Part shown: positions 2,053-59,000 of the stretch, in pieces | Layout: every line of letters begins with the position of its first letter | Numbering within the stretch: position 1 is the stretch's first letter | Origin: a virus | Length of the DNA: 64,000 nt | IMG/VR virus record: IMGVR_UViG_3300007504_000006 | Location: 1-64,000 of that record | Reading direction: 5' to 3' (one strand) | Made by a program: the position numbers and the translations under genes | The notes under the pieces: model-generated | Databases searched by the model: none | What the model was told of the DNA's origin: nothing | The model's input: the letters and a program-made list of their open reading frames with translations, nothing else

Positions 2053-2979
2053 ATGAAACTGATTACAGGTAACGCAAATACAAAACTTGCTACTGATATT
2101 GCTAATATTGCCGGCGTTGAATTATGCGAAACTCTAGTAACTAGATTCGCCGACAATGAAATATGGGTAGAAATAAAAGACAACATTCGTGGTGAAGATG
2201 TTTTCCTCATCCAAAGCACATGCAATCCCGCCAACGACAACTTAATGGAATTATTAATAATGGTTGATGCTTGTAAAAGAGCAAGTGCAGGTCGAATTAC
2301 GGCTGTAATACCTTATTATGGTTATGCTAGACAAGATAGAAAACCAGCAGGACGATCACCTATTAGTGCCAAACTTGTTGCTAATATGTTAGAAGCGGCA
2401 GGGGTAGATCGTATGCTAACTATGGATTTACATGCAGGTCAAATTCAAGGTTTTTTTGATATTCCTGTAGATAATCTATATGCCCAACCATTATTTGTTG
2501 AAGACTTATTATCAAGCCCAATGATTAGTGCTGGTAATGCAATAATAGTTTCACCAGATGCAGGCGGAGTTCCCAGAGCAAGAGCAATAGCAAAAAAATT
2601 AAATCTAGATATTGCAATTATAGATAAAAGACGAGATAGGGCTAATGAGTCCGAAGCAATGAACGTCATAGGAGACGTAAAGGGGAAGCAATGCATCATC
2701 GTCGACGACATAATAGATACAGGTGGGACATTAGTAAAAGCCGCACAGGCATTAATAAGCGAAGGCGCCGAAGAAGTGGAAGCATATATAACACACGGTG
2801 TATTAAGCAAAGGCGGAGCGAAGAGGATGGAAAAATCAGCTCTGAATAGATTAGTAATAACTGATACTATTCCTGCACCTGAAAATAAAGTACTAAAAGT
2901 CATTTCAGTTGCGAATATATTTACTGAAGCAATTCGCAGAGTACATCATGATGAATCAATATCAGTATTATTTGAATAA
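2053..2979 (+). CDS. prs: Ribose-phosphate pyrophosphokinase (PRPP synthetase)
   Basis: A full-length 308-residue class I PRPP synthetase, close to the roughly 315 residues of bacterial enzymes. It makes phosphoribosyl pyrophosphate from ribose-5-phosphate and ATP for nucleotide and NAD synthesis. Visible motifs include the N-terminal ATP-site stretch RFADNEIW (about residue 31), IPYYGYARQDRKPAGR (about 87-102), the catalytic loop DKRRDRANES (about 190) and the PRPP-binding loop VDDIIDTGGTL (about 213-223). All key residues appear intact, so it is probably active. The stop overlaps the next ATG (TAATG). In the phage it would act as an auxiliary metabolic gene raising PRPP supply; I see no nicotinamide phosphoribosyltransferase in this window. 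Confidence 0.97.
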   Translation: MKLITGNANTKLATDIANIAGVELCETLVTRFADNEIWVEIKDNIRGEDVFLIQSTCNPANDNLMELLIMVDACKRASAGRITAVIPYYGYARQDRKPAGRSPISAKLVANMLEAAGVDRMLTMDLHAGQIQGFFDIPVDNLYAQPLFVEDLLSSPMISAGNAIIVSPDAGGVPRARAIAKKLNLDIAIIDKRRDRANESEAMNVIGDVKGKQCIIVDDIIDTGGTLVKAAQALISEGAEEVEAYITHGVLSKGGAKRMEKSALNRLVITDTIPAPENKVLKVISVANIFTEAIRRVHHDESISVLFE

Positions 2980-6512: not shown

Positions 6513-7390
6513 CGAATAAGAAGAAAAGAAACTGCAATAATAACTGAGCAAAGAAAAACAACAAAAGTATAATATGTTACTAAGGGAGTTTTAAAATACA
6601 TTTTACCTATAATGAAACATTTATGAACAGGACTTAGCATATAGCCTGCATAATCTATAGCGAAAAACATAGGAAGGTATTGAACACCGAATATACTTGT
6701 AAGAATAGCAGTAAATGCCGCAAACCTTGCAGAAGATCCTAATAAAAAACTACCAGCAAATCCTATCCAAGCACCTGTTACAAGTGACCAATCATTATTT
6801 TCAATATATGCTTTAATTTCATTTGTATAAGATTTAATATAATTACCTAAAACAATAACCAAAAATAATGCTATTAATAGTTTCCAATTAACCCATTCTA
6901 CTGTAACTTCTTTTTGTTTAGGATTAATCCAGATTACATCTTGTTCTTTTAAAAAATAAAATACTAAAAACAATGGAAGAACTATAGCAATCATTGCAAG
7001 AGGCCCCATCACATACATAAATTCTACATATGTTAACCCTAAAACTGCCATAGGTATAATAACAGATTTTTCAAACGGAGACCACAAGTAATAATGATGT
7101 GTACTAAGATAATCTATAATGCCATACCATTTGCGTCTAGAATCTTTAGGTGCCATTGTATCTAAAATACCAGCAGATACAGATACCCTTCCAGGTATAG
7201 GTAGCACACCACATAAAGCACTAACTATAACAACAAATAATCTATTTGATTTTATATATTTGCTTAGAAGATTTAGCACAGGATATATATACCCATTGCG
7301 TTGCACATACGCAGATGTAACCATAATGCCTGCAAGGTACAATACGTACCATTGATTATTAAATATTATTTCTAGCATCAGTTTTTTCAT
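6509..7390 (-). CDS. Polytopic membrane protein, permease-like (possibly DUF401-like)
   Basis: A protein of about 293 residues starting MKKLMLEIIFNNQW at 7390. Longer in-frame starts exist up to 7462 but would lie deep inside the preceding gene; the Met at 7378 is also possible. I count eight to ten hydrophobic helices, with a re-entrant-looking motif CGVLPIPGRVSVSAGILD (about residues 60-77) that recalls the DUF401 family of ion-transporter-like permeases. A matching half-repeat may lie near SFLLGSSARFAAFTAIL. A full-size permease is unusual within a phage tail block. Substrate unknown. The family assignment is from memory of the motif, not a search. Confidence 0.6.
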   Translation of the reverse strand: MKKLMLEIIFNNQWYVLYLAGIMVTSAYVQRNGYIYPVLNLLSKYIKSNRLFVVIVSALCGVLPIPGRVSVSAGILDTMAPKDSRRKWYGIIDYLSTHHYYLWSPFEKSVIIPMAVLGLTYVEFMYVMGPLAMIAIVLPLFLVFYFLKEQDVIWINPKQKEVTVEWVNWKLLIALFLVIVLGNYIKSYTNEIKAYIENNDWSLVTGAWIGFAGSFLLGSSARFAAFTAILTSIFGVQYLPMFFAIDYAGYMLSPVHKCFIIGKMYFKTPLVTYYTFVVFLCSVIIAVSFLLIR

Positions 7391-8087
7391 GTGGGATATG
7401 GGTGTATTCCCACTTAAATTTCTCGGCGTCCCATTCGCTTTCAGTTCCTTTATTAACAACAATATTCATTACAAATGTTAATCTTTTTTCATTTTCCTGG
7501 AATGGATATACTTGATGCAATAAATCAAAATCATAAATCATACCAAAATTTTTCTGTGGTATTATATTCATTAATTCTTGATCTTTTATTATAACATGAC
7601 ATCCCTTATAAGATGCATTATTGGTGATCTCTTGGGTTTTCATATTAAAAAATCGTGATTTCAAATTTCGACCGAATGAGGTTTCTAAAGCAGAATCAAA
7701 ATCATTAAGAAAATATATAAAATTAAAATCATTTGCTTCGTGTATGTGAAGAGGATTAAATTCATTTTTCCTCATTACATTTAGCCATGATGATCGAATT
7801 AGTACATCATTCTTTTCAATTTTTTTAAACTTGCCCATTCTATTATTCAAATCGTGTTCTATATGAGCATGTATAATTTGATTAAACGTGTCTAAATAAA
7901 ATTCATCTAATACCCCATGATTAATAATATATTCATTTTCTATTTCTCCTACCAACATATTATTAGCCTTGGCACCACTTTGATTTATCATAGAAAGAAG
8001 AGAATTACTAAAATTATCAGTAAACGAATCGGTCGCTTCAAAAAAAGTTAAAATTTTATCTTGAAAAGTTTTATGAAATATTTTCAT
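7359..8087 (-). CDS. 2-oxoglutarate/Fe(II) oxygenase-like protein
   Basis: A 242-residue protein whose C-terminal half has the 2OG-Fe(II) oxygenase pattern also seen at 38064 and 38812: a Trp strand followed by His residues (NPLHIHEANDF, about residues 124-134), a Gly/Phe strand (FNFIYFLND) and a distal His with an Arg (LHQVYPFQENEKRLTFVMNI, about 195-214). The N-terminal half is less conserved. It overlaps the upstream U32/methyltransferase gene by four bases, suggesting coupled expression. The substrate is unknown; a protein or glycan associated with the fibres is an inference from position. Confidence 0.65.
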   Translation of the reverse strand: MKIFHKTFQDKILTFFEATDSFTDNFSNSLLSMINQSGAKANNMLVGEIENEYIINHGVLDEFYLDTFNQIIHAHIEHDLNNRMGKFKKIEKNDVLIRSSWLNVMRKNEFNPLHIHEANDFNFIYFLNDFDSALETSFGRNLKSRFFNMKTQEITNNASYKGCHVIIKDQELMNIIPQKNFGMIYDFDLLHQVYPFQENEKRLTFVMNIVVNKGTESEWDAEKFKWEYTHIPHEKTDARNNI

Positions 8088-16448: not shown

Positions 16449-19307
16449 CTATAATGCTGTTACATCTTTAACTACAATTATACCATGCATGGGGGCATGA
16501 GCCGTACATTGATAAATGTAATTACCGCTTATTACTTGAGGTACTGTCCAAAATAATGTACCATCAATTTTTCCTTGGGCACTTGAACCATATGACCAAA
16601 CATTAGACGTACTAAGATGCCTTAACCCTGTATCATATGCATTAGTTGTGTTTCCTGTAACACCTTCACCTGCGGCTGTTTTTATAACAAATCCGTGGCC
16701 CGAACAATCTAATGCAAATGCATATGTATGGCCGCCTATAACATATATTGTAGGACTTACTGCCGCACTTCCACCTAAGTCATTTCCTGTTACCGCAATT
16801 GTATCAATTGCAAAATATGTATTTGATATTACATAATCATACACTGGCGTTTGAACAAAAAATGTTCTTGCCGCGGCACGTCTTGACTCATATGCGGCTT
16901 CAGCCGCCGCAAAAGTTACAGTATCATTAGTGGAATTTGTTGTAATGGTTATTCCTGTACCTTCAACTAAAGTTACTGTATCACCTGGTTGATCAGCAGT
17001 AAGAGAATTTTGTCCAGATACTGCAATATTTTTATATGTATCTTGTGTTACTGATGACGCCGCAATTGTTAATGTATCGGTTGTGGAATCTGGTGTAATT
17101 GTAACATTAGAACCACCCACAAATGTTAAAGTATCTGTAGCCGAATCTGCTGTTATTGTGCTACCACCTGATACTGCAATTGAAGTAAATGCTGTTGTTG
17201 CTTGGGCAGAATTAGTAATTGTTATACTATCGGCACTATCGTCGGTTGCGATTGCAATACCTGTTCCTGCAATTACTGTTAATGTATCACCTGTTACAGA
17301 TCCATTATCAGCAACGACATCATTTTGTCCTTGAACACTAACTGTTCCAAAAGCAGTAGTAGGAGTTTGGTTACCACCACCTGATGCAGTAGAATTAATT
17401 GTTAAAGTTTGAGCGGCCGCATCGGTTGTTATTGTGACATTAGTTCCTGCAACAAATTCTAAAGTATCTTCTGAGCCTACCGCAACAACATTGTCTTGTC
17501 CTGAAACAGAAATCGTTTTAAAAACATCTGTACTTAAAGAAGAATCAATAGTAAGAACATCACCAGCAATACTAGTTGTAATATTAGTACCACCAGTAAC
17601 AGTTAATACGTCTGTCGAACTGTTTGCTGTTACTGTTCCAGTATCTGCATTTAGGGTTGCCCATAAATCTTGAGTGGTTCCTCCGCCACCGCCACTACCG
17701 CCGGTGTTTGTAATTGTAATAGTATTTCCTGCTCTTGTAGTATCTATACCAGTACCACCAGCAATAGTAAGTTCATCTGTTACACTTGTTGCTTCTGCTG
17801 ATCCTCCCGAATCTGCTGTAACTTTATAATATACACCTGATGGAACTTCAGTCGATTTTGCTACTTTAATCCATTCTCCACTATTACTAGTTGCAGAATA
17901 ATATAATTCATTATTTGCTACACCTACGCAACCCGGATAAGTTGCCGCATCAATTGCACTTTCTAATCCGCTTTTTAATGAAAAGTTATTTTTAAATTTT
18001 GCATTATGCGGAACTAAAAAATCACCATTAACAGTTAATCCTGTTGCTACTTCTGTTCCTGTAGTTTTTATTATTAAAACACTTGTGTCATGATTTTTAA
18101 AATCAAATAAAGGTCTTGTTGTAATTGCTTCTGGCGTACCATACGAATAATCTACTACTTCTCCGCCTTTTCTAACTATGAAATCCATCATAGAAGTAGT
18201 ACCAGTATCCTTTGCTGTAGGAACTTCACCGATAACACTCATACTAGCAAGAGTTGTACTAGATTCTACTCCTCCTCTAACAGTAGGAGCCAACGTTGCT
18301 GTTGTTGTAGATCCGCTTGACATTTCTACAAAATCATTGGTAGCATCTGAAATTGTACCTCTAAAAAATATTTCTCGATTAGTACTAGCAGGATGATTTA
18401 TTTGAATTTTACTACCAAAGGATAATTGATTTTGAAATATTACATCTCCTCCAAATGTAATATCTCCGGCCAAGGTATAATTACCTGTATTTTTAACGTA
18501 ACCAGGTTCAATTGAAAATACGTTATTGTTTAAGTCTAATCCGGTACCTGGAGTATATGCCAAATCTGGAGCATCAATTGTAATTTCATTAGCATTTTGT
18601 GTTAATGTAATATTAGTACCTTGTTTGATACTTCTAAATTGTAAATCACCTGTAGTATTATCTTTAGCAAAAAATACTTGTACTTCACCTGCACCTCTAT
18701 TAGATGCTAAGTTTGATTCGCCTGTATTTTCTACAAATTCTAATGCGGTTTCGCCTGTGTTAACTCTTAACCATTTATGTTGTTCGCCTGTATAATTACT
18801 TGGAGTATCTGTAAGTCCGGTAAAATCAGAGGAACCGCCTCCTCCGCCACCACCTCCAGTAGGCATATCTACTGGTTTATATTGTTGTGCATTAGATTGG
18901 TATTGGAGTATTTGTCCATCAGTAATGCCCGAATCATCTACATTTAATAAATTAGTAAGATTCTGAGTTGTTATATTTTTTAAGTAACTTTCTAATGAAT
19001 GATCACCCCAAGAGTAAGCAGTTTGTGCATTTGTAAGAGTTGTTTGTGTACTAGCATCTAATGCTATTGTACCAGAAGCAGTTATTGGGCCGCCATCTAT
19101 TCCTGTACCAGTATCAATCTGGGTAACAGTACCTGTTCCAGTACCTACAAATTCGCTATGTAACAGTATTCGGTGTCCTCCTATAGTGGCTCCGTCATGT
19201 ACTCTTAATGTGTTTAGGTCAGTATCTACTGTTACTTCGCCTTGAGCTCCTGTAAATGAAGCATGTTGAGTAGTACTTCCTCTTCTAAATTTTACTTCTG
19301 TACTCAT
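16449..19307 (-). CDS. Tail fibre with C-terminal cupredoxin-like (type 1 copper) domain
   Basis: A 952-residue fibre. The start MSTEVKFRRGSTTQHASF is the usual entry of marine phage fibres. The body is built of repeats such as SGQDNVVAVGSEDTLEFVAG and a DTP module (FTGLTDTPSNYTG, about 155-170). The last 130 residues form a cupredoxin-like domain: GHTYAFALDCSGHGFVIKT supplies a His, and the end loop QCTAHAPMHG gives Cys-x2-His-x2-Met, the spacing of amicyanin-type blue copper sites, so all four type 1 copper ligands appear present. In related phage fibres the same fold is common; whether copper is bound is untested. A poly-Gly linker occurs near residue 150. Confidence 0.85.
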   Translation of the reverse strand: MSTEVKFRRGSTTQHASFTGAQGEVTVDTDLNTLRVHDGATIGGHRILLHSEFVGTGTGTVTQIDTGTGIDGGPITASGTIALDASTQTTLTNAQTAYSWGDHSLESYLKNITTQNLTNLLNVDDSGITDGQILQYQSNAQQYKPVDMPTGGGGGGGGSSDFTGLTDTPSNYTGEQHKWLRVNTGETALEFVENTGESNLASNRGAGEVQVFFAKDNTTGDLQFRSIKQGTNITLTQNANEITIDAPDLAYTPGTGLDLNNNVFSIEPGYVKNTGNYTLAGDITFGGDVIFQNQLSFGSKIQINHPASTNREIFFRGTISDATNDFVEMSSGSTTTATLAPTVRGGVESSTTLASMSVIGEVPTAKDTGTTSMMDFIVRKGGEVVDYSYGTPEAITTRPLFDFKNHDTSVLIIKTTGTEVATGLTVNGDFLVPHNAKFKNNFSLKSGLESAIDAATYPGCVGVANNELYYSATSNSGEWIKVAKSTEVPSGVYYKVTADSGGSAEATSVTDELTIAGGTGIDTTRAGNTITITNTGGSGGGGGTTQDLWATLNADTGTVTANSSTDVLTVTGGTNITTSIAGDVLTIDSSLSTDVFKTISVSGQDNVVAVGSEDTLEFVAGTNVTITTDAAAQTLTINSTASGGGNQTPTTAFGTVSVQGQNDVVADNGSVTGDTLTVIAGTGIAIATDDSADSITITNSAQATTAFTSIAVSGGSTITADSATDTLTFVGGSNVTITPDSTTDTLTIAASSVTQDTYKNIAVSGQNSLTADQPGDTVTLVEGTGITITTNSTNDTVTFAAAEAAYESRRAAARTFFVQTPVYDYVISNTYFAIDTIAVTGNDLGGSAAVSPTIYVIGGHTYAFALDCSGHGFVIKTAAGEGVTGNTTNAYDTGLRHLSTSNVWSYGSSAQGKIDGTLFWTVPQVISGNYIYQCTAHAPMHGIIVVKDVTAL

Positions 19308-19316
19308 TTTGTTTCC

Positions 19317-21341
19317 TTATGCAACTGTTTGCCCTGCAAGTTTATAAATTTTACCTGTTCCTGTAGGAGCATATGATAATCGTGTTATAATATATAATTC
19401 TTTATTAATATCTTCTCCAAACCCTGTAATAAATTCGGTACCAACATCTATTGCTATAGGGTTTAATTGATTTATTTGATACATATCTGGTACTGGTTCC
19501 TTTAAGTAATATAATTTTCCCGAAGGATTGTTCCAATCTGTAGTCCAATCAGCAAAAACATATTTTCCAACTAATTCTGTACAAGTGGCTCCCCTATAAA
19601 CAACCCCACCTATAACTGATAGTCCATTAATTGCTCCGCCTGAATGTGTGTATGATGCAACAGGATTTTCAAAACCATTCATAAATGTATTAACATCTGT
19701 ACCTGCGGCAGTAGCAAGAGCAATACCATGATCTAAATCATATACATTATCTCCTTCTTTTACACTCCATCCATAGTTTTTACCATTTTTAACAATATCA
19801 ATTTCTTCTATAGTATTTTGTCCTACATCCCCTGTCCAACATTTTCCTGTAGTTTGATCTACACTGAGTCCGTATGGATTTCTAAATCCATAAGCGAATA
19901 TTTCTTCTTTATAAGTAGAATGATCTTTGTATGGATTATCTGTTGGTATAGCATAATTTGTATATGCTGATGAACCTATATCTACATTTATTCTTAAAAC
20001 TTTTCCTAATAAATTAGTTCTGTCTTGAGCTAAATGATCTGGATCACCTTGCCCTCCGCCGTCGCCTGTTCCAATATACAAAAACCCATCGGGCCCAAAA
20101 GTTATGGCGCCTCCATTATGGTTACTTGCAGGTTGATCAAATTGTAAAATAATTACCTCAGTACTAATATCTACTGTATCATCATTTGCAGGATCGGTAA
20201 CTGTATACCTAGCCAATATAGATTCGTGATCAATTCCTGCACCCGATTTTGCTTTAGAATAATAAACAAAAACCCAACCATTAGTATTATAACTAGGATG
20301 AAACGCTAATCCTAGTAAACCTCGTTCATCATAAGATGTACTTAAAGATTGTATAGTTGATGATAAATCTAAAAATGGAGTTGACAAAATGGTAGAACCT
20401 TTGTATACTTTAATTTTACCTGATTGTTCTGCAATGAATAATCTTTCATCATGACCTGTATTTGTTAATACAACAGGCCCTTCTAATCCAGTAGTATGAT
20501 CTAAAAATACATTTAAATTAACTGCCGTGTCATCTGAAATAAATCCGTTATCTTGTTCTGCCTCGTGGGCCACTAAATCACCAAAATCTACAGGAATTAA
20601 TCCGTAATCTGTTTTATTAAGGGTATAATCAGGTGTTCGTATTTTTATTTGGTTTGTGCCTTCTTCGCTAATAACAATACCATCACCTGCTAGTAATCTT
20701 TTAAATTCTAAATTAACATTACTTTTTTGTTTAAATATACCTATGCCTTCTGTATTTGTGCCGGCATTGCTTGCACTATTTGCTTCGCCACCTACTGCTC
20801 CTGGAGCAGTTTGCCATGTTAATGTTCCTGTGCCATCTGTCATTAAAAATTGACCAGATGTTCCAGCGGATGAAGGAAATGCTAATTCATTTAATTTTAA
20901 CGCACCACCTGCTCCTACTTCTATTTTTAAATCGGTGTTTAATGCAGATATAATTTTCTTTTCATTTAAATTTAAATCTCCCCCTAATACAGGAGTAGCA
21001 TCATTTTGAACGGCAGTAAATTGTTCTGTGTAAGCCAATGTTTGACTTGAACCAGGTATTGCCCTATATACTACAACGGCTGTTTCGCCTGCTTCTAATG
21101 ATGAACTAAATGCAATTTGTGTTCCACTTGCTAAATTTGTTACACTATAATCAACTCCTGGCTTTTGTGTAACACCATCTATTGTTACATCTAGTGCCGC
21201 AACATCTTTAGGAGAACCTGTTGTCAAGGTAAACGAAGTACCTGGGCCAGTAAATGTATCATACTGAAAGTCAGGTATATTTTGTATATCATCGTAATCA
21301 ACTGCGGCTAAAACCGCTTCATATCGTTGACCATAGTACAT
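19317..21341 (-). CDS. Tail fibre fused to a PQQ-type sugar dehydrogenase beta-propeller
   Basis: A 674-residue protein. Residues 1 to about 270 are fibre-like, starting with a VDGVTQKPGVDYSVTN module. Residues about 275-674 match the glucose/sorbosone dehydrogenase family (PF07995-type, six-bladed propeller): RGLLGLAFHPSYNTNG, NHNGGAITFGPDGFLYIGTG, GGQGDP, QDRTNLLGKVLRINVD, YGFRNPYGLS, GDVGQNTIEEID, GKNYGW, YTHSGG and a closing GKIYKLAG. The His of NHNGG and the Arg-Asn of FRNP correspond to PQQ-contacting residues of known members. There is no signal peptide. It either oxidises surface sugars or, more likely, uses the propeller as a carbohydrate receptor. The fusion looks complete, not a frameshift. 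Confidence 0.88.
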   Translation of the reverse strand: MYYGQRYEAVLAAVDYDDIQNIPDFQYDTFTGPGTSFTLTTGSPKDVAALDVTIDGVTQKPGVDYSVTNLASGTQIAFSSSLEAGETAVVVYRAIPGSSQTLAYTEQFTAVQNDATPVLGGDLNLNEKKIISALNTDLKIEVGAGGALKLNELAFPSSAGTSGQFLMTDGTGTLTWQTAPGAVGGEANSASNAGTNTEGIGIFKQKSNVNLEFKRLLAGDGIVISEEGTNQIKIRTPDYTLNKTDYGLIPVDFGDLVAHEAEQDNGFISDDTAVNLNVFLDHTTGLEGPVVLTNTGHDERLFIAEQSGKIKVYKGSTILSTPFLDLSSTIQSLSTSYDERGLLGLAFHPSYNTNGWVFVYYSKAKSGAGIDHESILARYTVTDPANDDTVDISTEVIILQFDQPASNHNGGAITFGPDGFLYIGTGDGGGQGDPDHLAQDRTNLLGKVLRINVDIGSSAYTNYAIPTDNPYKDHSTYKEEIFAYGFRNPYGLSVDQTTGKCWTGDVGQNTIEEIDIVKNGKNYGWSVKEGDNVYDLDHGIALATAAGTDVNTFMNGFENPVASYTHSGGAINGLSVIGGVVYRGATCTELVGKYVFADWTTDWNNPSGKLYYLKEPVPDMYQINQLNPIAIDVGTEFITGFGEDINKELYIITRLSYAPTGTGKIYKLAGQTVA

Positions 21342-21683: not shown

Positions 21684-24600
21684 TTATGCGAATGCAATAG
21701 CAAAAGCAATTGCATCGTCTTCTTCTATATAAGCACTTCCGCCAGGTCCACTAACTGCTAAGTTACCTATCTGTATATTGTTGCCTTGTTGTATTACAGA
21801 AATACCTGTTCCTGCTGAAATAGAATGAAATTCTAAATCTACACCTGTTTTTTGTTTAAATACTCCAGTTCCTGTCCCAACATTAGATACAGTATTTGCT
21901 TCACCAGTAGAGGTATCAGGGGCAACACCTGGTTCCCATTTACTAGTTACTGAGTTCCATATTAATACATCATTATTTGCTGGAGCATTTGCATAATCTA
22001 CATCAGCAAGGTCACTTGCATTTTTAGATCCAAAATTTGTATCAACACGAGCCTCAGTATAATATTTATTTGTACTTCCTTCTATAACATTGTCTGTACT
22101 AATAGTTCCGCCAACTGTATAATTTGTTAAATCAGCTTCTCCAAGGTATCCTAATGCGGTTTTATTAGTAAATCCTATCGCGGCATTTGTTTCATCTACT
22201 GTTAATAAAAATGTATCTGATCCTGCAAAAGAAGCAGGAGTATCTGTTAACTCTAAAAATGTAGTAGTAGGTGGTTCTACAAATTCTAAATCAGCACCTG
22301 TTGCGGCAACTCTTAAATATTTTCCTGTTTGCCCGCTCATTGTACTAGGTGTATCAGTAAGCCCTGCAAAGGTTGTAATATCGTCGGGGGCATCAACAAA
22401 CTCCAATGCCGTGCCACCTGTATTAACTTTTATATATTTTCCAGCATCTCCGGTTGAAATACCTGGTGTATCTTGTAATGCAGAAAATGTATCAACTTGA
22501 ACTGGAGGATTAACAAACTCTAATCCTGTTTCATTTGCTTTAATTGCAATATACTTTCCACCTTCATTTGCCATAGTACTAGGTGTATCGTCTAAATTAA
22601 TAAAAGTCTTATCTGTAAAAATAAGACCCGTGGCACCCGAATTAACTGTTACTAATTTACCTTCGTTAGTTGAGTAAGTATTAGGTAAAACATCATTTAA
22701 ATTAATAAAATCTGTAATAGTTGTAGGAACATCTGTAAATTGTAATCCGGTTGCTCCGCTATTAACAATTAACATTTTTCCTACGTTACCAGAAAATGTT
22801 GGAGGAGTATCTGTTTGCCCAATAAATGTTGGATTACCATCTATAGTTACTGTAACGTTATCGCCTACTGCTGACGCATTTACTCCATCACCAACAAAAT
22901 CTAAATAACCGACTTCATATGTTAATGTAGTTCCTTCATTTCTAATGCTTACTTTAGGATAATCAGACCAAATAAATTTATTATTTGCAAAATCATATTG
23001 TAAAAATTTATCGTCATCGCCTTGTACTGGAGTATCAACATCAATTATTTGTCCTAAAGTTAATGCTTTCCATTTATATGAATTAGTTCCATAATCATAA
23101 TATAATACTTTTTCATCGTCTGCTTGTATTGATCCTGCTACATCTAACAATTGGGTTAGTGTGTAATCACGAAATTTAAACGAGGTAGTTGCATGATTAT
23201 AATATGCTATTTGTTGATCATTAGTGGAAGTCAGAGCATCTACATCTTCTAAATTTTTAAGTTCATAGGCTTTCCACTTAAACGATGTTGACGGATGATC
23301 ATAATATAAAAAATTAGTATCATTGCTTCCTGAAACAGGAGCAACATCATATAAATCAGTAAAATTTTCTTGTGTTACATTTTGTAAAAATGTTTGGTTT
23401 ATAAATTCTAAACCTGTACCATCATTTTTAACTTTTACAAAATATCCTGCCGAACCTGTATAATTTGCCGGAGTATCAGTTAAATCTATAAACTCATCAG
23501 GTACACTTACATCAGCAAATTCAAGTGACGTTTCATTAGTAGCAACTTTAACAAACTTTCCTGCTTGGCTAGTGTAAGTACTAGGGGTATCAGTTAAACC
23601 TGTAAAAACGGTTGCACCTGTTGCTGATTTATCATCTAATACCCAAGTACCATTTAAATATGAAATAATTTTACCATTGGATACACCAGTAACATTTACA
23701 TCTGTTAATCCTGCTAATGTATTAGATCCTGTATCTAATTGTGGAGTAAATTTTGTACCATCATATTTTAAAACTTGATTAAGAACAGGAGTTGTTGTGG
23801 TTGTATCTACATCTGTTAAATCATCTAATACAGTAGGTATAGATAATGTCGAATTTACCCATTTATTAGTAGTACCTGCAACCCAACGTAATACCTGATC
23901 AACTGTTGGCGAAGTTGTTGATGTATCTACATCTGTTAAATCATCAATACTAGCAGGAACAACGGTAAGTTCTTCTTTCCATTTTTGAGCAATTGAATTC
24001 CATCTTAAAAAATATCCATTAGTACTAACATTTAACGCCGAAGTATCAACATCTCGTATATCAGTTAAATCATCATCATCCTTATCAAAATAATTTTGGG
24101 TTGCATGATTAGTCCAAGCATGGGCGGCATCCCAATTAGTAATTTTTTGTTGGGTTATTCCAGACGAAACATGAGCACCAAATACAGGATCAGTTTCTGT
24201 ATAAGTTTTTAGGTATCCTTCAACACTATGATCTCCCCATCCGTGGGCTGTGTCCCAATCGGTAATTTTTGCAGTAGTAATATTACCTGCAGGTGAAGCA
24301 AGGAATACAGGATCTTGTTCGTCTAATGGTGTGTATGTAAAAACACCTGTTGTATTATCATACGTTAATGTTGATGTTGCATTTGCTGTTGCATTTGTTA
24401 CAGATAAATCTGTTAAATCTACAGTACCTGATGATCCCCATTCTAATGTCGAACCTGTCGAAGGGAATCGTAATACTTGTCCTGCCGCACCAATAACACC
24501 TGGTATTGTATATTTGCCATCAACAACAATATTGTTATTATTATCTACAATTTCATTTGTTATTGTTAATGTTTTTTGTTGCCATGTAATTGTTGCTCCG

Positions 24601-25880
24601 GACCCATCACCTGATCCGTTTGTATCTTGATTGAAATCATATAATTGTTCAGCAGTATCATTTGCCGCTACTATCTGTAAAAATGCTCCTGCTGAACCAT
24701 CGGTTATTCTGGTTCCAGTAGATTCACCATAAGTAATACCATTGGTATATATCTGACCTGAAGCATGTGTACCATCCGATACAGTTGAAAATTCAAATTG
24801 ACTGTTTACTAATGTTGCATTACTTGTATCAAATTTATATGTGCCTCCTGCAACAAAATTAAAAGATGTAATAGCAGTACCTGCTCCAACTATTCCTGTA
24901 GCATCTTCAAAAATATATTTTCCGCTGTCAAATTTTACATAATATGTTTGAGTAGTTATAGGAGGTGCAGTAGTTGTTAAAACAATACCATTACCTTCGG
25001 CTAAAGTTATTTCATCTACCGCTGTGGCTGTAAGTTTATCTTGGCCTGCTATATTCCAATGTTTAAACGTACTTTCCATAGCAATTTTCATTGCTTTGTT
25101 GCCTAAATCAGTTAATGCAAACCCGCTATCTACATCAAACTGTATCGATGTTATATCTGAATTAGTAACATTTGCACCAGTGCCTGTTTCTTTTACTTCT
25201 AAATTAAAAGTAGTACCGGTACCTCCTGTGAAGTTTTGTAAACCTTCGGCACCAATATATCTATATCCTTTGAGCAAATATACAGAATGTGTGTAAACTC
25301 CACTTGATTGTGTTAATAATGGATCTCTAAGATTTCCATTAGGATTACCTACCATTACAAATACACCAGATTCATAATCCCAGTAATATTCTTCATCTGT
25401 AGATTGTGGATATATTTCTTCGTAATCTTGTCTTGCTGTTAAGTCGTAATTACCATTACCTCCGCCAGCAAGTGCTATTGCAAATTTAGGCAAATATGTT
25501 GCACCATATGTTGCTCTAAGCCAATTAGTGAGTCTAGTAGTACCGTCACCTACTGTAGAACATGCAAGCCATGATCGTTGATCTGCTACAGTAGGATCTC
25601 GTGTTAATTCTATAACACCTGCAGATTCGCCAACTGCGGTACCTGCTACAGCACCATTTTTATATTGATAAGAATTAACAGTAGCAGTATTAACATCACT
25701 GGCGACAGCAGGTATTAAATGACTGTCTAACCATAAATTGTGGGTTGGATTTGGAATAGGACTAACTATGGCTTCGTTATTTGGTCCTTTCTCGTGGTCA
25801 AATGCCGTTCGAGCTTTACCATAATTGACTTTTTTATCAATCCTATTCGTGATTACATCATTTAAATTATATGTCGGCAT
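21684..25880 (-). CDS. Large tail fibre with tandem DTP repeats and a degenerate cupredoxin-like domain
   Basis: A 1,398-residue fibre. About residues 300-440 form a domain resembling the cupredoxin module of marine phage fibres (YKFDTSNATL, then FEFSTVSDGTHASG), but the copper ligands are missing: the expected Gly-His is replaced by Asn-Ser-Gln, and the expected Cys/His/Met loop is replaced by a LYDFNQDTNGSGDG stretch. The middle has repeats on LTDVDT or LTQLLDV. From about residue 755 on there are eight DTP repeats (a Phe strand, L-x-DTP, a Gly turn and GLEFV). The C-terminus is short and acidic. Two bases separate it from the upstream lysozyme fibre. Confidence 0.85.
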   Translation of the reverse strand: MPTYNLNDVITNRIDKKVNYGKARTAFDHEKGPNNEAIVSPIPNPTHNLWLDSHLIPAVASDVNTATVNSYQYKNGAVAGTAVGESAGVIELTRDPTVADQRSWLACSTVGDGTTRLTNWLRATYGATYLPKFAIALAGGGNGNYDLTARQDYEEIYPQSTDEEYYWDYESGVFVMVGNPNGNLRDPLLTQSSGVYTHSVYLLKGYRYIGAEGLQNFTGGTGTTFNLEVKETGTGANVTNSDITSIQFDVDSGFALTDLGNKAMKIAMESTFKHWNIAGQDKLTATAVDEITLAEGNGIVLTTTAPPITTQTYYVKFDSGKYIFEDATGIVGAGTAITSFNFVAGGTYKFDTSNATLVNSQFEFSTVSDGTHASGQIYTNGITYGESTGTRITDGSAGAFLQIVAANDTAEQLYDFNQDTNGSGDGSGATITWQQKTLTITNEIVDNNNNIVVDGKYTIPGVIGAAGQVLRFPSTGSTLEWGSSGTVDLTDLSVTNATANATSTLTYDNTTGVFTYTPLDEQDPVFLASPAGNITTAKITDWDTAHGWGDHSVEGYLKTYTETDPVFGAHVSSGITQQKITNWDAAHAWTNHATQNYFDKDDDDLTDIRDVDTSALNVSTNGYFLRWNSIAQKWKEELTVVPASIDDLTDVDTSTTSPTVDQVLRWVAGTTNKWVNSTLSIPTVLDDLTDVDTTTTTPVLNQVLKYDGTKFTPQLDTGSNTLAGLTDVNVTGVSNGKIISYLNGTWVLDDKSATGATVFTGLTDTPSTYTSQAGKFVKVATNETSLEFADVSVPDEFIDLTDTPANYTGSAGYFVKVKNDGTGLEFINQTFLQNVTQENFTDLYDVAPVSGSNDTNFLYYDHPSTSFKWKAYELKNLEDVDALTSTNDQQIAYYNHATTSFKFRDYTLTQLLDVAGSIQADDEKVLYYDYGTNSYKWKALTLGQIIDVDTPVQGDDDKFLQYDFANNKFIWSDYPKVSIRNEGTTLTYEVGYLDFVGDGVNASAVGDNVTVTIDGNPTFIGQTDTPPTFSGNVGKMLIVNSGATGLQFTDVPTTITDFINLNDVLPNTYSTNEGKLVTVNSGATGLIFTDKTFINLDDTPSTMANEGGKYIAIKANETGLEFVNPPVQVDTFSALQDTPGISTGDAGKYIKVNTGGTALEFVDAPDDITTFAGLTDTPSTMSGQTGKYLRVAATGADLEFVEPPTTTFLELTDTPASFAGSDTFLLTVDETNAAIGFTNKTALGYLGEADLTNYTVGGTISTDNVIEGSTNKYYTEARVDTNFGSKNASDLADVDYANAPANNDVLIWNSVTSKWEPGVAPDTSTGEANTVSNVGTGTGVFKQKTGVDLEFHSISAGTGISVIQQGNNIQIGNLAVSGPGGSAYIEEDDAIAFAIAFA
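22190..23620 (-). repeat. Eight tandem DTP fibre repeats of about 32 residues
   Basis: Within the 1,398-residue fibre, a unit of roughly 30 to 33 residues recurs about eight times: F-x-x-L-x-DTP, a short Tyr/Ser/Gly turn, GKxxKV and a final GLEFV strand. Examples are FTGLTDTPSTYTSQAGKFVK, FIDLTDTPANYTGSAGYFVK and FAGLTDTPSTMSGQTGKYLR. Copies differ at the DNA level. One further copy lies in the fibre at 16449-19307. Confidence 0.85.
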
Positions 25881-37254: not shown

Positions 37255-38064
37255 ATGGCTGTAAAACGAAATTATTTAAACAATAAAGATATTTTAAAAC
37301 AAATACATTTATCAAAACAGACATATTGTGCATATACACATGATAAATTTAAGGATTACGATTTAATTGTAGCAGAACATGTTAATTGTATTGATATTGA
37401 AGATTTAACAGACGAAAATAAAGAAGAGGCAATTACCAATCGTAAAAAACGATTAGAAATTGACAAGGATGTAGAAGTAGAAATTGATCCAAATGATATT
37501 GTTTATAGAGTTTATGACTTTGCACACATACCTTTAGAACCAGGCAGAAAAAATAAACCTAAAACAATAGCGGATCATCATGCTAAAGTAAATTTTCCTC
37601 CTTTTAAACACTATGTTTGGAATCAAAATAAAAACAGATATAAAGAAGTAGCAAGATCACATTGGAAGGGCACTATTTCTACAGGTAAGTTTTGTGTTGA
37701 ACATGGATACATGACAGATGAACTTGCTAATATGTGTATGAAACTTACAGAACGATATGCTACACGATCTAATTGGCGAGGGTACACTTATGTAGATGAA
37801 ATGCGGTCGCAAGCATTATTGCAACTATCACAAATTTCATTACAATTTGATGAGAGCAAATCACAAAACCCATTTGCATATTATACTGCCGCAATTACAA
37901 ATTCTTTTACACGAGTATTAAATGTCGAAAAACGTAGTCAAAATATACGTGACGATCTACTAGAAAAAGCAGGACATAATCCTAGTTATACTAGACAAGT
38001 AGCACATCAAATTGCTATTGCTGAAAAAGCAGAAACAGAAAGAAGAGAACGAGGCGAAGTATAA
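37255..38064 (+). CDS. 55: Late-transcription sigma factor, gp55-like
   Basis: A 269-residue protein whose C-terminal half has the signature of T4-type gp55 sigma factors: YVDEMRSQALLQLSQISLQF (about residues 180-199) matches the sigma region 2 helix, followed by NPFAYYTAAITNSFTRVLN (about 207-225) and QNIRDDLLEKAG. gp55 directs host RNA polymerase to late boxes of the TATAAATA type with help of the sliding clamp. Recurring late-like boxes in this window fit this function. It has its own sigma70-type promoter. Its stop overlaps the next ATG by one base. Confidence 0.9.
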   Translation: MAVKRNYLNNKDILKQIHLSKQTYCAYTHDKFKDYDLIVAEHVNCIDIEDLTDENKEEAITNRKKRLEIDKDVEVEIDPNDIVYRVYDFAHIPLEPGRKNKPKTIADHHAKVNFPPFKHYVWNQNKNRYKEVARSHWKGTISTGKFCVEHGYMTDELANMCMKLTERYATRSNWRGYTYVDEMRSQALLQLSQISLQFDESKSQNPFAYYTAAITNSFTRVLNVEKRSQNIRDDLLEKAGHNPSYTRQVAHQIAIAEKAETERRERGEV

Positions 38065-38822
38065 TGCTTCATAGTAGAATCGATTTTAATGAAGACATTG
38101 CAACAAATGTTAGGTTATTTAATCCGTTTGGACCTAACATGTTTTATATGTCATTAAAAGATCGACATACAGCAGAACTGTTAGAAATAATTAATAAACT
38201 TAGTAGCCAACAAGATATAAAAGATAAATTAAATGCAATTGGTCAAATTGTTCACGGTACTAAAGGAAAAGAAAATCAAAAAAATAGTATAGTTGATGGA
38301 GAAATGTATCCTATACGTACAGAATTTTTAGAAGAAAATGATAAACAAATTCTTATAGATGTAATTACAAATTTAACATTAACATATGCTCAAATTGTTA
38401 CTTCTCATGCTAAAGATGATCTTGCATTAAGAGATGATTCTGATGCCATTGAAAAACTAAAAAAAGAAGAAAATGAATATGTGGCCGAAATACAAGGTCT
38501 TTGGTATGTTAAAATGAAGGCTGGAGATTTTCATATACTACATGAACATTCTACATCTGGAGCAACTATGAGTGGAGCAATATATTTAGATGTACCTGAG
38601 TTACCTTGGCCACAAGGTAATATAAATTGGATTCCTCCTGGCGGAGAAAACACTATGTATAATAGTACATGGCAACTTAGTCCTAAATCAGGCGATGTTA
38701 TTATGTGGCCTGCATGGTTATTACATACAGTATATCCATTTAAAAGTGATAAAGAACGAATTATGATTTCTTTTAATTCTATTTTATTAACCCAAAAAGG
38801 GGAGAAGTATAATGCTTTATAG
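38064..38822 (+). CDS. 2-oxoglutarate/Fe(II) oxygenase-like protein, tandem copy 1
   Basis: A 252-residue protein with the 2OG-FeII_Oxy_5-type pattern: GDFHILHEHSTSG (about residue 155, His ligands), the strand SGAIYLDVPELPWPQGN, and a distal His and Arg in LLHTVYPFKSDKERIMISFN. It is clearly paralogous to the next gene: both start with the form DIGTDA or DIATNV followed by FNPFGPN, and their central strands align throughout. It starts inside the gp55 stop (one-base overlap). The substrate is unknown; tandem copies suggest different substrates or a heteromeric enzyme. Confidence 0.8.
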   Translation: MLHSRIDFNEDIATNVRLFNPFGPNMFYMSLKDRHTAELLEIINKLSSQQDIKDKLNAIGQIVHGTKGKENQKNSIVDGEMYPIRTEFLEENDKQILIDVITNLTLTYAQIVTSHAKDDLALRDDSDAIEKLKKEENEYVAEIQGLWYVKMKAGDFHILHEHSTSGATMSGAIYLDVPELPWPQGNINWIPPGGENTMYNSTWQLSPKSGDVIMWPAWLLHTVYPFKSDKERIMISFNSILLTQKGEKYNAL

Positions 38823-39570
38823 TAATATTAATATTAATTCCGATATTGGAACTGATGCAAGTTTTTTTAATCCATTTGGTCCTAATATTTTATATTATAA
38901 ATTACAACCCGATGTTTTAAAAAAAACATTAGATTGTGTAAATGCATACCGAAGTGATCGAGAATATATCGAAGAATTAAAAACCAAAGGACAAATAATC
39001 CAAGGAACTAGATCACAAGAAAGTCAATCAAATTCTATTGTTAGTGGTGAAATGCTACTAATAGAACAAGAGTTTCAAGAAAAACATTTTGATAATATTA
39101 TTCAAGATATTATTAATATAACTAGTTATAATTATGGATTACAATCTGCTAAATTTAGTGTATTCGATATGGGTATGCGAGATATACAAGACGAATATAT
39201 AAAAGAAATTGACGAAGATATATCGTCATTGAAAGTTTCTATTAAAGATTGTTGGTTTGTTGTTTTAAAAGAAGGAGATTTCCATATTTTACATGAACAT
39301 CATTATGGAGGAGCAATTCTTAGTGGAGCAATTTATTTAGATGTACCTGAAAAGCCGTGGCCTCAAGGTAATATTAATTGGATAGTTAATGGAGTTTCAA
39401 CTCATATGTTTAACTCTAGTTGGGGATTACAACCAACCACAGGAGATGTTTTTATGTGGCCGTCTTGGATTAAACATTCAGTGTATCCTTTTAAAGGAGA
39501 AGGAGAACGAATTATGATATCGTTTAATGCAACCCTTTTACGTGCAAGAGATAAAAAAAATGACAAATAA
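38812..39570 (+). CDS. 2-oxoglutarate/Fe(II) oxygenase-like protein, tandem copy 2
   Basis: A 252-residue paralogue of the preceding gene, exactly the same length. Iron-site residues are kept: GDFHILHEHHYGGAILSG, SGAIYLDVPEKPWPQGN and IKHSVYPFKGEGERIMISFN. It overlaps the first copy by 11 bases and gp47 by 11 bases, so the group is tightly packed. The two copies align over the whole length, indicating duplication of an entire gene, with divergence mostly in the helical middle (about residues 80-130). Confidence 0.8.
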   Translation: MLYSNININSDIGTDASFFNPFGPNILYYKLQPDVLKKTLDCVNAYRSDREYIEELKTKGQIIQGTRSQESQSNSIVSGEMLLIEQEFQEKHFDNIIQDIINITSYNYGLQSAKFSVFDMGMRDIQDEYIKEIDEDISSLKVSIKDCWFVVLKEGDFHILHEHHYGGAILSGAIYLDVPEKPWPQGNINWIVNGVSTHMFNSSWGLQPTTGDVFMWPSWIKHSVYPFKGEGERIMISFNATLLRARDKKNDK

Positions 39571-42331: not shown

Positions 42332-42527
42332 AACACCATGGATTGATAGAAGATCATTATTAGACATAACTCAACAATCTAGAGGAGGAGCTGGATTGGC
42401 ACCATTAGATATGGGATATGTATACGTCTTTAAAAACGGAGAAACCAGACATTGTTTAGATGACTCGGAGGCATATAACTTTTATGCAGATAACAAAGAA
42501 CGACTTGACTCAGAACCAACAATTTAA
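42324..42527 (+). CDS. Small hypothetical protein downstream of gp46
   Basis: A 67-residue protein starting MSETPWIDRRSLLD, overlapping the gp46 stop by eight bases. It has an N-terminal acidic/Trp segment, a Gly-rich middle (QQSRGGAGLAPLDMG) and a YVYVFKNGETRHCLDD hairpin. The DHODH-like gene starts inside its end in another frame. No family is recognised. Confidence 0.55.
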   Translation: MSETPWIDRRSLLDITQQSRGGAGLAPLDMGYVYVFKNGETRHCLDDSEAYNFYADNKERLDSEPTI

Positions 42528-43236
42528 ATTTTTTATAGCGGCCCCGTTTGGCAATTATATTAAACATAAAAATGCAATTAATGTTAGAGGTTCTTTTACA
42601 ATATTACGTAGACCAGGATTAATTAAACAACTATTTAGAACTCTTAGATATGATTTTTCTAAAAAAGGATGGAAGAACGAATTAGGACTCCGTAATCCGG
42701 GTATAAAACACGGACTTAATAAATACAGAAACAACGGCAAAGAAGTTATAAGTATTGCCGCAATTATGCCTAGAGATTGGGGTGACTTTGCAAAAGACAT
42801 ACCCGATCATGTAAACTTAGAATTAAATTTAAGTTGTCCAAATATCGATAAAGTAGAAATAGATTATAAAGCTCTTACTAAGTTTTATAATGCATTTTGG
42901 GATAATAAACGAGAATGGTGTATAGCCAAAATATCGCCCCTATCTACAGAGGACGAAATCAAGCGATTATTAGACATTGGGTTTGGTCAGATCCACTGCT
43001 CCAACACCCTCCCTATTACTGGCGGAGGATTGAGCGGAAAGGAATTGATAAGTTACACGATCAAACTCATAGATTACATAAAGACACACTTTCCCTCAGT
43101 GAAGATTATCGCAGGAGGAGGGATTGATCATATAGATATTGTAAATTACTATAAAGGTAAAGGTGCAGATTATTTCAGTTTAGGAACTGTATGTTTTACA
43201 CCTTGGAAATTATCAAAAATACTTAATGCCAAGTAA
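42484..43236 (+). CDS. Dihydroorotate dehydrogenase-like flavoprotein
   Basis: An about 250-residue protein with the FMN TIM-barrel pattern of DHODH: FFIAAPFGNYI (about residue 17), NLELNLSCPNIDKV (about 120), ISPLSTEDEIKRLLDIGFGQ, HCSNTLPITGGGLSGKELIS (about 175), IIAGGGIDHIDIV and DYFSLGTVCF for FMN phosphate binding. The Cys in LSCPN corresponds to the catalytic base of class 1A enzymes. I chose the Met at 42484 because GGAGG lies at 42467-42471; the start at 42460 is possible. It oxidises dihydroorotate to orotate in pyrimidine synthesis; phage use fits nucleotide supply. It is shorter than bacterial enzymes (about 310-340). Confidence 0.82.
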   Translation: MQITKNDLTQNQQFKFFIAAPFGNYIKHKNAINVRGSFTILRRPGLIKQLFRTLRYDFSKKGWKNELGLRNPGIKHGLNKYRNNGKEVISIAAIMPRDWGDFAKDIPDHVNLELNLSCPNIDKVEIDYKALTKFYNAFWDNKREWCIAKISPLSTEDEIKRLLDIGFGQIHCSNTLPITGGGLSGKELISYTIKLIDYIKTHFPSVKIIAGGGIDHIDIVNYYKGKGADYFSLGTVCFTPWKLSKILNAK

Positions 43237-56094: not shown

Positions 56095-59000
56095 ATGGCT
56101 GATTTTATTCTAGGACGATTAAAGTTCAAATGGAAAGGTGACTGGGTTACCTCCACACAATATATTATAGATGATATTATTAAGTATGGAGCCAATACAT
56201 ATGTATGTATTGTTAATCATACTTCTGGTACTTTCTATACAGATTTAGATTCTAATTCGTACTGGTCTTTGCATACTGAAAGTTTTGCTTATAATTCGAG
56301 CAGTACTGCATGGGCTTCAGGCACTGAATATAAAAATAATGACGTAGTACGTTGGGGAGCGAATTTATATATTTGTAATGCTCATCATACTTCAGCCGCA
56401 GATTGGGCAACTAATTCAGCTAAATTTACTTTATTCGTACCAGGTTTAGAATTTGAAGATTCCTATAGTAATACTACACAATATCAAACAGGTGATGTTG
56501 TTACATATGGTGGATATACTTATACTGCAAAACAAGATTCAATAGGTAATTTACCTACTGCTACTACATACTGGGATTTATTTACTACTGGATTTAATGT
56601 TAAAGGTGAATATAATGCAGGTACAGCATATAATCCAGGTGATGTAGTAACTAGAAATGGTTATGTATATGTAGCAAAAGTAGACACTACAGGTAATGCT
56701 CCTACAATCCAAGATACAGATTCTAATTCACCTACATACAATGAAACAATTACAAATTCAGCTTATTGGGATTTAATTAATACAGGTTTTAAGTTCCAAG
56801 GAGATTGGTCCGGAGCATCAACTTATTATTTAGGTGATGTAGTAAAAGAAGGAAATAGTTCATATATTTGTGTAGATGAACACACAGGTGATGGTACCTC
56901 ATCCTCTGCTACTAAACCTCCATCGGCTTATTGGGATACATTGGCGGCAGGTGATACAACTATTGTTATGAATACACCTGGTGACATAATGATTCGAACC
57001 TCTACTAATACAAAATTAAATGTAGGTAAAAAAGGTTGGAAATTACGAGCAGATGAAGGACAAAATTATCCTGTACATTGGGATCCAGATGATGAATCAT
57101 ATACATGGTATGTTGATCCTCATAAAGGATCGGATGAAGAAAATCTTACCTACAGTCCCGGTGTAGTTTCAACAGGAAGTATGAGCACAGGCGAAGAATC
57201 AACTTGTACAAGAGACTTAGGATATGTGTTAGATGCTTCAAAATATGATATGGCAATGGGCACAAACTATATGCAACATATAGTAGGTCATAGAATGCAA
57301 TATGGTGTAAATGTAACAACCGGCGACAGATTAAGAGTATTAGGTGCTATTGATCATGCAAAATTAGCAACCATTGATATTAATAGTGTTAAAAATGAAA
57401 ATGCAATACTTCAAGAAGTTACCCAAGCATTTGATGAAGTTGTTGATATTATAAACAATGGTCATGCCGCGGCAGATGCCGCATCGTTTCCAGCATTTGG
57501 AGCAAGCACAAATAAACAAAATGCAGTATTACAAATGCAAGCAAATAAAAATTTTATTGCCGCAGAAGTAAATGCATGGGTAGAAGATTATATTGGGGCC
57601 ATGACAACACAAGAACAAGATTTATGTACAAGAGATTTAGGTTATGTTGTTAATGCCGCAAAAAATGATATGGCAATTGGCACAAATTATATGGCAGTTA
57701 TTACTGGCATTAGATTTAACTATGGGTTATATACTACATCCTCAGATAAAGTAAGAGTTCAAGATGCTATTGATCATTCGCAAGCATCAATTAAAGCATT
57801 AACTAATGTATCCGGAGCGGCTGAAACCGCAATAGATGCCGCCTATGCAGAAATTAAAGATATTATAGATAATGGTAATTCTTCTGCTGATGCTTTAACT
57901 TTTCCAGATTTTAATACAGGTAGATCAGATTGGACAGATAGAAAAAATGGTGGTTCCCAATTACAGGCAAATAAAGATTTTATTGCCGCAGATGTAAATG
58001 CATGGGTTACACAAAATTATCCATCTCATTTTGGTACATATGATGAAGCAAAATGTACAAGAGACTCAGGTTATCTTGTAGATGCTTTAACGTACGATTT
58101 AATGTATGGAGGTGATAGTGCAAGTGTAATAATGGCTAAGTCATTTTTTGATGGTGGAGTTTCACAATTAACAACTCCAACTGAAAGAAATGTAACTGTT
58201 TTAGCATATCAACATATGGCAACAATTGCAAGTGCTATTGTTCAAGAAACAACAGTAACACCCCAAACAGGAAACAGCGAAACTCAAGATACAACTGGTA
58301 CAGCCGCTACAGCCGCAGAAGGAACAATAGTTTCTAATTTAATGCAAATTACAGAAGATGCAATTACTGCTAATAGTGCTTCAGGTATACCAGCGGCTAC
58401 CTATCCAGATGTTGCAACCTCAACTCATATTACACCACATACAGATATTACAACAGATCAAACAACAATTATATCTAATGCGGTGGCTTCAGTTGCGAGT
58501 AGTGCTGGTTATGTTCACGATGCATCAAAATGTACACGAGACACAAAATATTTTGTTGATGCTATGTGTTATGATTTAATGTATGGAGGAGATTTTGGTA
58601 CTCTAGTATCTGCTAAATCTTTTTTTGATGCTGGAGTTTCTCAAATACCAGCAAATCATAGAGAAACAACAGGTTTAGCATATAATTATATGGCAGATGT
58701 ATTTAAGTATTGTATAGAAAAAACTACAGCATGGAATCCGGAACAATCTGTAATAACTCAAGATACTTCAAACAATGCAGGAACAAGTGCAGAAACTACA
58801 ATAGTAGATACAAATTTACAAGTTATAGAAGATGCAGTTAAAAATAATACTGCACCAACAGCATCAATAACATATCCTTCTATAGGAAATGCTTCTGCAA
58901 ATAACACTACAGCATTTAATGATATAACATCAAGTCAAGCAACTATTATATCAAATGCAGTGGCGGCAGTGGCGGCAGGACAAATAACAGGTGAAGGTAT

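Follow-up and report, generated by a model that had tools for sequence, protein, structure and literature searches.

The type-1 cupredoxins, such as amicyanin, auracyanin, plastocyanin, rusticyanin and azurin, are free electron carriers. A module at the C-terminus of a phage tail fibre resembles them in predicted fold, in the kinds of ligand and in ligand order, and it has the C-x2-H-x2-M spacing of amicyanin as well. However, this module is part of a phage fibre, falls below every family cut-off tried and is known from sequence and a model. Passages of PMC4059628 describe an axial Gln in place of Met in stellacyanin, and cite a proposal that copper geometry is set by the length of the ligand loop rather than by its sequence.

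Metal is known on phage fibres of the HxH type (T4 gp37, alterophage R22Y), and the iron in these fibres is the closest precedent found; PMC11705849 places iron at the HxH sites of T4 fibres and sets out an iron Trojan-horse idea for HxH tail fibres. In HxH fibres the iron lies between HxH pairs of the trimer, whereas the fibre described here has one candidate site inside a cupredoxin fold. Assignment to the HxH type was rejected, as no two of the fibre's 14 histidines are two residues apart.

The window, that is, the whole stretch of DNA analysed, comprises positions 1 to 64,000 of the 86,248-base virus record IMGVR_UViG_3300007504_000006 (IMG/VR), and contains a minus-strand run of fibre genes. 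The capsid protein places the phage nearest to large T4-like phages, with 73% identity to Sinorhizobium phage Phosso and 67% to Cronobacter phage GAP32; "T4-like" is our own label. Other genes in the window include one for a 1965-aa protein with two CBM_5_12 stretches, a chitin-type carbohydrate-binding module (56095-61992, plus strand), and three 2OG-Fe(II) oxygenase-like genes (7359-8087, minus strand; 38064-38822 and 38812-39570, plus strand), which adjoin tail genes or a recombination gene. Host-like nucleotide genes encode a ribose-phosphate pyrophosphokinase (2053-2979, plus strand) and a dihydroorotate-dehydrogenase-like protein (42460-43236, plus strand). The features of the module-bearing fibre are the following:

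16449..19307, minus strand: tail fibre gene carrying the module (952 aa, ORF call)
19185..19295, minus strand: Mtd_N domain, residues 5-41, probable virion-proximal anchor (Pfam PF18454, E 9.8e-15, above cut-off)
16458..16853, minus strand: predicted cupredoxin-fold module, fibre C-terminus (A3 profile, masked-ligand profile, fold model)
16695..16697, minus strand: His871, upstream ligand candidate (His in 345 of 376 module hits, 11 gaps)
16506..16508, minus strand: Cys934, ligand candidate (Cys in 341 of 376 hits, 15 gaps)
16497..16499, minus strand: His937, ligand candidate (His in 338 of 376 hits, 17 gaps)
16488..16490, minus strand: Met940, axial ligand candidate (Met in 340 of 376 hits, 18 gaps)

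Because the 952-aa fibre begins with Mtd_N, a distal position of the module is probable. The placement of Mtd_N would suit a fibre that is anchored in the virion by its N-terminus and bears the module at the opposite end, and from this we infer that the module forms the fibre "tip".

The sequence-only reading had proposed four copper ligands at the fibre end, with an amicyanin-type loop and a His further upstream. All four are present in the fibre: the loop reads Cys934-Thr-Ala-His937-Ala-Pro-Met940 and His871 lies upstream (positions by script), in a column that is His in most related modules, as listed above. The Cys-His-Met spacing also recurs in the alignment with amicyanin, where these three ligands agree; a point against the match is that the upstream His is displaced there by about two residues. 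C-x2-H-x2-M was found twice in 31,859 residues (six-frame stop-to-stop segments of at least 60 aa), so that the motif alone is weak evidence; it is raised above chance by the family match, by the invariance of the ligands among family members, and by a predicted fold like that of copper proteins. The four ligand positions (His62, Cys125, His128 and Met131 in model numbering) are invariant in six of six hand-picked family members. The axial position is Gln in five of the 376 module hits, and four of 322 unique modules read H-C-H-Q; the modules of loci L145, L012, L179 and L171 are of this kind, with an axial Gln as in stellacyanin.

The fold was modelled from an alignment of 56 modules (A3), all from the window or from fetched IMG/VR loci, and the AF2 model has a pLDDT of 86.6 and a pTM of 0.82. 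In this model the module is a cupredoxin beta-sandwich. Foldseek gave 45 PDB matches at E<=0.001, and every one is a copper protein or a chain from a copper-oxidase complex. Rusticyanin is the top match (E 1.1e-5), and the others include nitrite reductase (NiR), plastocyanin, AcoP, auracyanin, amicyanin, pseudoazurin, laccases and cytochrome oxidase subunits (CuA subunits). The TM-scores are modest (0.33-0.48 by query), so the fold call leans on the agreement of several methods. A second structural aligner matched nitrite reductase (Z 11.1, rmsd 4.0 over 120 residues) and 2dv6 (Z 10.3, rmsd 2.8 over 100 residues). The modelled strand 119-125 closes with Cys125, and the loop ahead of strand 132-138 holds both His128 and Met131; the same order of Cys, His and Met relative to the last strands is that of cupredoxins. 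In the model, as in type-1 sites, an upstream His thus precedes a Cys-x2-His-x(n)-Met that is placed about the two final strands.

Profile searches point the same way. Against PDB sequences, the A3 profile matched NiR (E 2.2e-5), auracyanin A (4.9e-5) and amicyanin (9.9e-5), and these together with plastocyanin lie within E 2.2e-5 to 2.8e-4. On the window's own record it gave E 2.9e-28, a value flattered by the presence of the window module in A3. A profile in which the ligand columns were masked still detects the window module (E 9.9e-18, somewhat flattered, since the seed set may include the window's own or a near-identical sequence). With the single sequence as query, the best PDB match was an azurin chain, 2xv0 (E 0.24), which we take to be a loop-engineered azurin; the four positions align, and its loop reads C-A-A-H-A-A-M. 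Among the 56 members of A3, 25 match Pfam Copper-bind (PF00127) at E<=0.1 (best 3.7e-6) and 24 match the plant domain At5g54830-like. The window module itself matched neither of the two, and its Pfam scan was empty up to E 10. Membership of the amicyanin family (NCBIfam TIGR02657) was rejected at 12.3 bits against a cut-off of 110.2; the module is amicyanin-like in its loop spacing only. The cupredoxin layout that had been read at the fibre end is borne out by the agreement of the fold model, the copper-protein matches and the profile matches.

Another metal, such as zinc, nickel or iron, might occupy the site: the identity of a metal is not readable from sequence, and T4 fibres bear iron at their HxH sites (PMC11705849). 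However, His, Cys, His and Met in a cupredoxin fold are a copper set, the fold matches are copper proteins and the fibre has no HxH motif. A metal other than copper is therefore considered very unlikely.

Conservation of the site was assessed in samples gathered without reference to the ligands, by DNA patterns for the strand before the His and for the His-to-Cys segment and by the profile with masked ligand columns. Loci sampled with a ligand-containing pattern are biased and were not used alone for this purpose. Identical modules, and matches shorter than 70 aa with gaps at the ligands, were left out of the counts. Among the matches listed, which are samples of at most 120 rows per pattern and not full counts, 94 of 102 unique modules in one ligand-blind set have all four ligands, as do 96 of 104 in the other and 294 of 322 when all loci, including the ligand-chosen ones, are combined. 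The ligand columns hold conservation ranks 3, 6, 9 and 10 among 103 columns, and the residues between the ligands in the loop are variable (2.25-3.22 bits), which argues against a single conserved docking partner.

The sequence-only reading had taken the intact site to be the unusual part. That view does not hold, as intact sites are the family rule in the ligand-blind samples. The window copy is thus ordinary within its family, and the metal-site reading is strengthened.

Where the site is incomplete, the upstream His and the Cys-x2-His tend to be lost jointly, in five of eight exceptions in one ligand-blind sample and seven of eight in the other (Fisher p 7e-7 and 4e-10, relatedness ignored). 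A tree of 118 modules, built without rows having any ligand gap, with fewer than 82 of 103 columns filled or with more than 85% identity, has six changes for the His and eight for Cys-x2-His. Supported independent pairs on this tree stand at 4 to 0 as a rule (p 0.125), too few for significance. The nine site-lost modules keep the scaffold (Gly32 in 9/9, Phe37 in 8/9 and Tyr88 in 9/9). In these sequences, joint loss with retention of the scaffold is the pattern that selection on a metal site would predict, and the tree-aware test is consistent with it. One probable member of the site-less class, a long-loop relative of the module by sequence, is in another fibre of the window:

24726..24917, minus strand: ligand-less module relative in fibre ORF 21684-25880, residues about 322-385 (long-loop-module profile)

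Scored with the long-loop-module profile over all ORFs examined, this relative has a sequence E of 6e-5, and the stretch itself reaches 2.5e-4.

It may be that the module is a metal-free structural block, in which the cupredoxin fold provides rigidity to the fibre, and that common descent or a part in packing accounts for the retention of the four residues. Site-less modules in phage structural genes, probably including the one in the window, retain the scaffold, and their existence means that the cupredoxin fold can function without the site. However, full sites predominate in both ligand-blind samples despite low mean identity, and the distant His tends to disappear along with Cys-x2-His. 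A metal-free module is considered unlikely.

Related modules had been said to occur in marine phage fibres, and a tblastn search with the window module indeed found them in 258 phage records, nearly all of marine cyanophages. Among the matches listed, most are annotated as gp9 baseplate connectors. A more central module used as the query matched 351 of 50,697 records. The C-terminal 142 aa of the fibre, the part scanned against PHROGs, match positions 321-411 of the 412 in phrog_677, the cyanophage gp9 connectors, which have the same C-terminal module (E 2.1e-20) and, in the gp9 proteins examined, the same four ligands. The two proteins differ at the N-terminus, which is T4 gp9/10-like in gp9 and Mtd_N in the window fibre. 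The gp9 search of solved structures hit T4 gp9 and gp10 through the N-terminus and not through the module (5/5 matches), and no module-bearing phage protein is present among the best 60 of 86 matches to solved structures. In an author-picked set of 13 modules from isolate or single-cell phage records, 11 have the full site; of the two exceptions, L385 is out of register in its alignment, and in L387 the site is gone. In one single-cell marine virus (L008, 3120-5291), the module is at the end of a protein read as a subtilisin-like protease, and fold matches in BFVD include S8/S53 peptidases of cyanophages.

The module also occurs beyond phages. Scanning genomes gave 38 loci of bacterial or archaeal assignment; many of them come from MAGs or single cells, and some may be phage or prophage contigs. 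The proteins at these loci include short secreted-looking ones and others with Lipoprotein_15, DUF7282 or CHRD. Of 44 cellular profile hits, 37 read H-C-H-M and the other seven are gapped at ligand columns. In the secreted bacterial proteins (e.g. L347, L351, L352), the module is 36-65% identical to the phage-module query and keeps the ligands, but its setting is lipoprotein or secreted, with Lipoprotein_15, DUF7282 or CHRD, and there is no virion. The modules of four such fusions to these domains (L351, L352, L361 and L356) have no Pfam match above cut-off. In a search of plasmids, no relatives of module L330 were found.

Marine phages have the module in fibres as well as in baseplate fibre connectors, which is compatible with a copper version of the Trojan-horse model, in which the metal-loaded tip would be offered to a host outer-membrane metal-uptake protein, with copper as part of the recognition. 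The analogy is to the iron idea for HxH tail fibres (PMC11705849). However, the loop around the site is variable, and about two thirds of the modules (215/341) lie away from the ORF end, the remaining 126 being within 30 aa of it. Type-1 copper is, moreover, nearly buried. Such a mode of recognition is regarded as decidedly unlikely.

The gene next to the module-bearing fibre encodes a fibre with an enzyme-like domain:

19554..20453, minus strand: GSDH (PQQ-type glucose/sorbosone dehydrogenase-like) barrel in fibre ORF 19317-21341 (minus strand), residues 297-596 (Pfam PF07995, E 8.8e-47)

This strong match on an adjacent fibre raises the idea of a redox pair, in which the barrel would oxidise host-surface sugars and pass the electrons to the copper tip. 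The barrel has its His and Arg-Asn in common with an annotated aldose sugar dehydrogenase, and the two fibre genes are neighbours in the window, as they are in each of the five related contigs found to have the GSDH fibre, two of which end inside the second gene, ahead of the module. A second phage (L028, record G004, a 124-kb contig) also has both domains, in different ORFs: the GSDH in one of 2450 aa and a full-site module in another very long one. However, the contigs with adjoining genes represent a single lineage, and GSDH is present in just one of 49 other module-bearing contigs (23 + 26, module presence verified), the exception being L028. Four loci chosen as kin of the window fibres (L003, L004, L340 and L341, three of which carry GSDH) were left out of that count. 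In addition, the solved structure that best matches the barrel is HHIP, whose GSDH-like barrel is not known to act as an enzyme. A redox pair is thus highly improbable. The GSDH barrel is a possible partner of the module, outside the core finding, and an electron partnership is not a general pairing.

The fibre end is probably a cupredoxin-fold module that binds one copper through His871, Cys934, His937 and Met940, in a mononuclear, type-1-like site with a mainly structural role. This reading builds on the sequence, the family membership, the predicted fold, the ligand conservation and the joint loss, all of which are shown here. A structural role is preferred because the ligands are retained although the surrounding loop is variable, because the module occupies different virion proteins and positions, and because no fixed redox partner accompanies it; receptor contact is the second choice. 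The module would be common to phages and secreted bacterial proteins, and phages would employ it as a rigid outer part of their virion proteins. Copper would be acquired after assembly or lysis, and would clamp together the two sheets and the exposed Cys-His-Met loop. The clamped tip would then remain stable in seawater and the shape of the host-facing surface would be fixed. We infer the position at the tip, the identity of the metal as copper, the moment at which it is loaded and its function in stability or at the receptor face. Virions of module-bearing phages may therefore carry copper, chiefly for locking the tip fold or for shaping the receptor face.

Cupredoxins are known and metal-bearing fibres are known; their combination appears to be undescribed in the literature searched. 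Among the titles of the matches listed from open-licence PMC papers, no description of a cupredoxin in a phage fibre was found. The window copy appears to be an ordinary member of a widespread virion module, seemingly undescribed in the searched libraries and open papers. If the copper reading is correct, the module could be named by its function; Pfam, PHROGs and NCBIfam leave it without a cupredoxin name above their cut-offs. Copper would be a structural cofactor of many marine phage particles, which is directly testable in cultured cyanophages. Phage stability or attachment would be tied to seawater copper, and viruses would be placed in the marine copper cycle. A bolder and rather doubtful extension is that the virions of a large share of marine tailed phages bear dedicated type-1 copper sites that serve in attachment. 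Were this true, such sites would be a copper counterpart of the iron Trojan-horse idea, and virus particles would form a recognisable pool of protein-bound copper in seawater.
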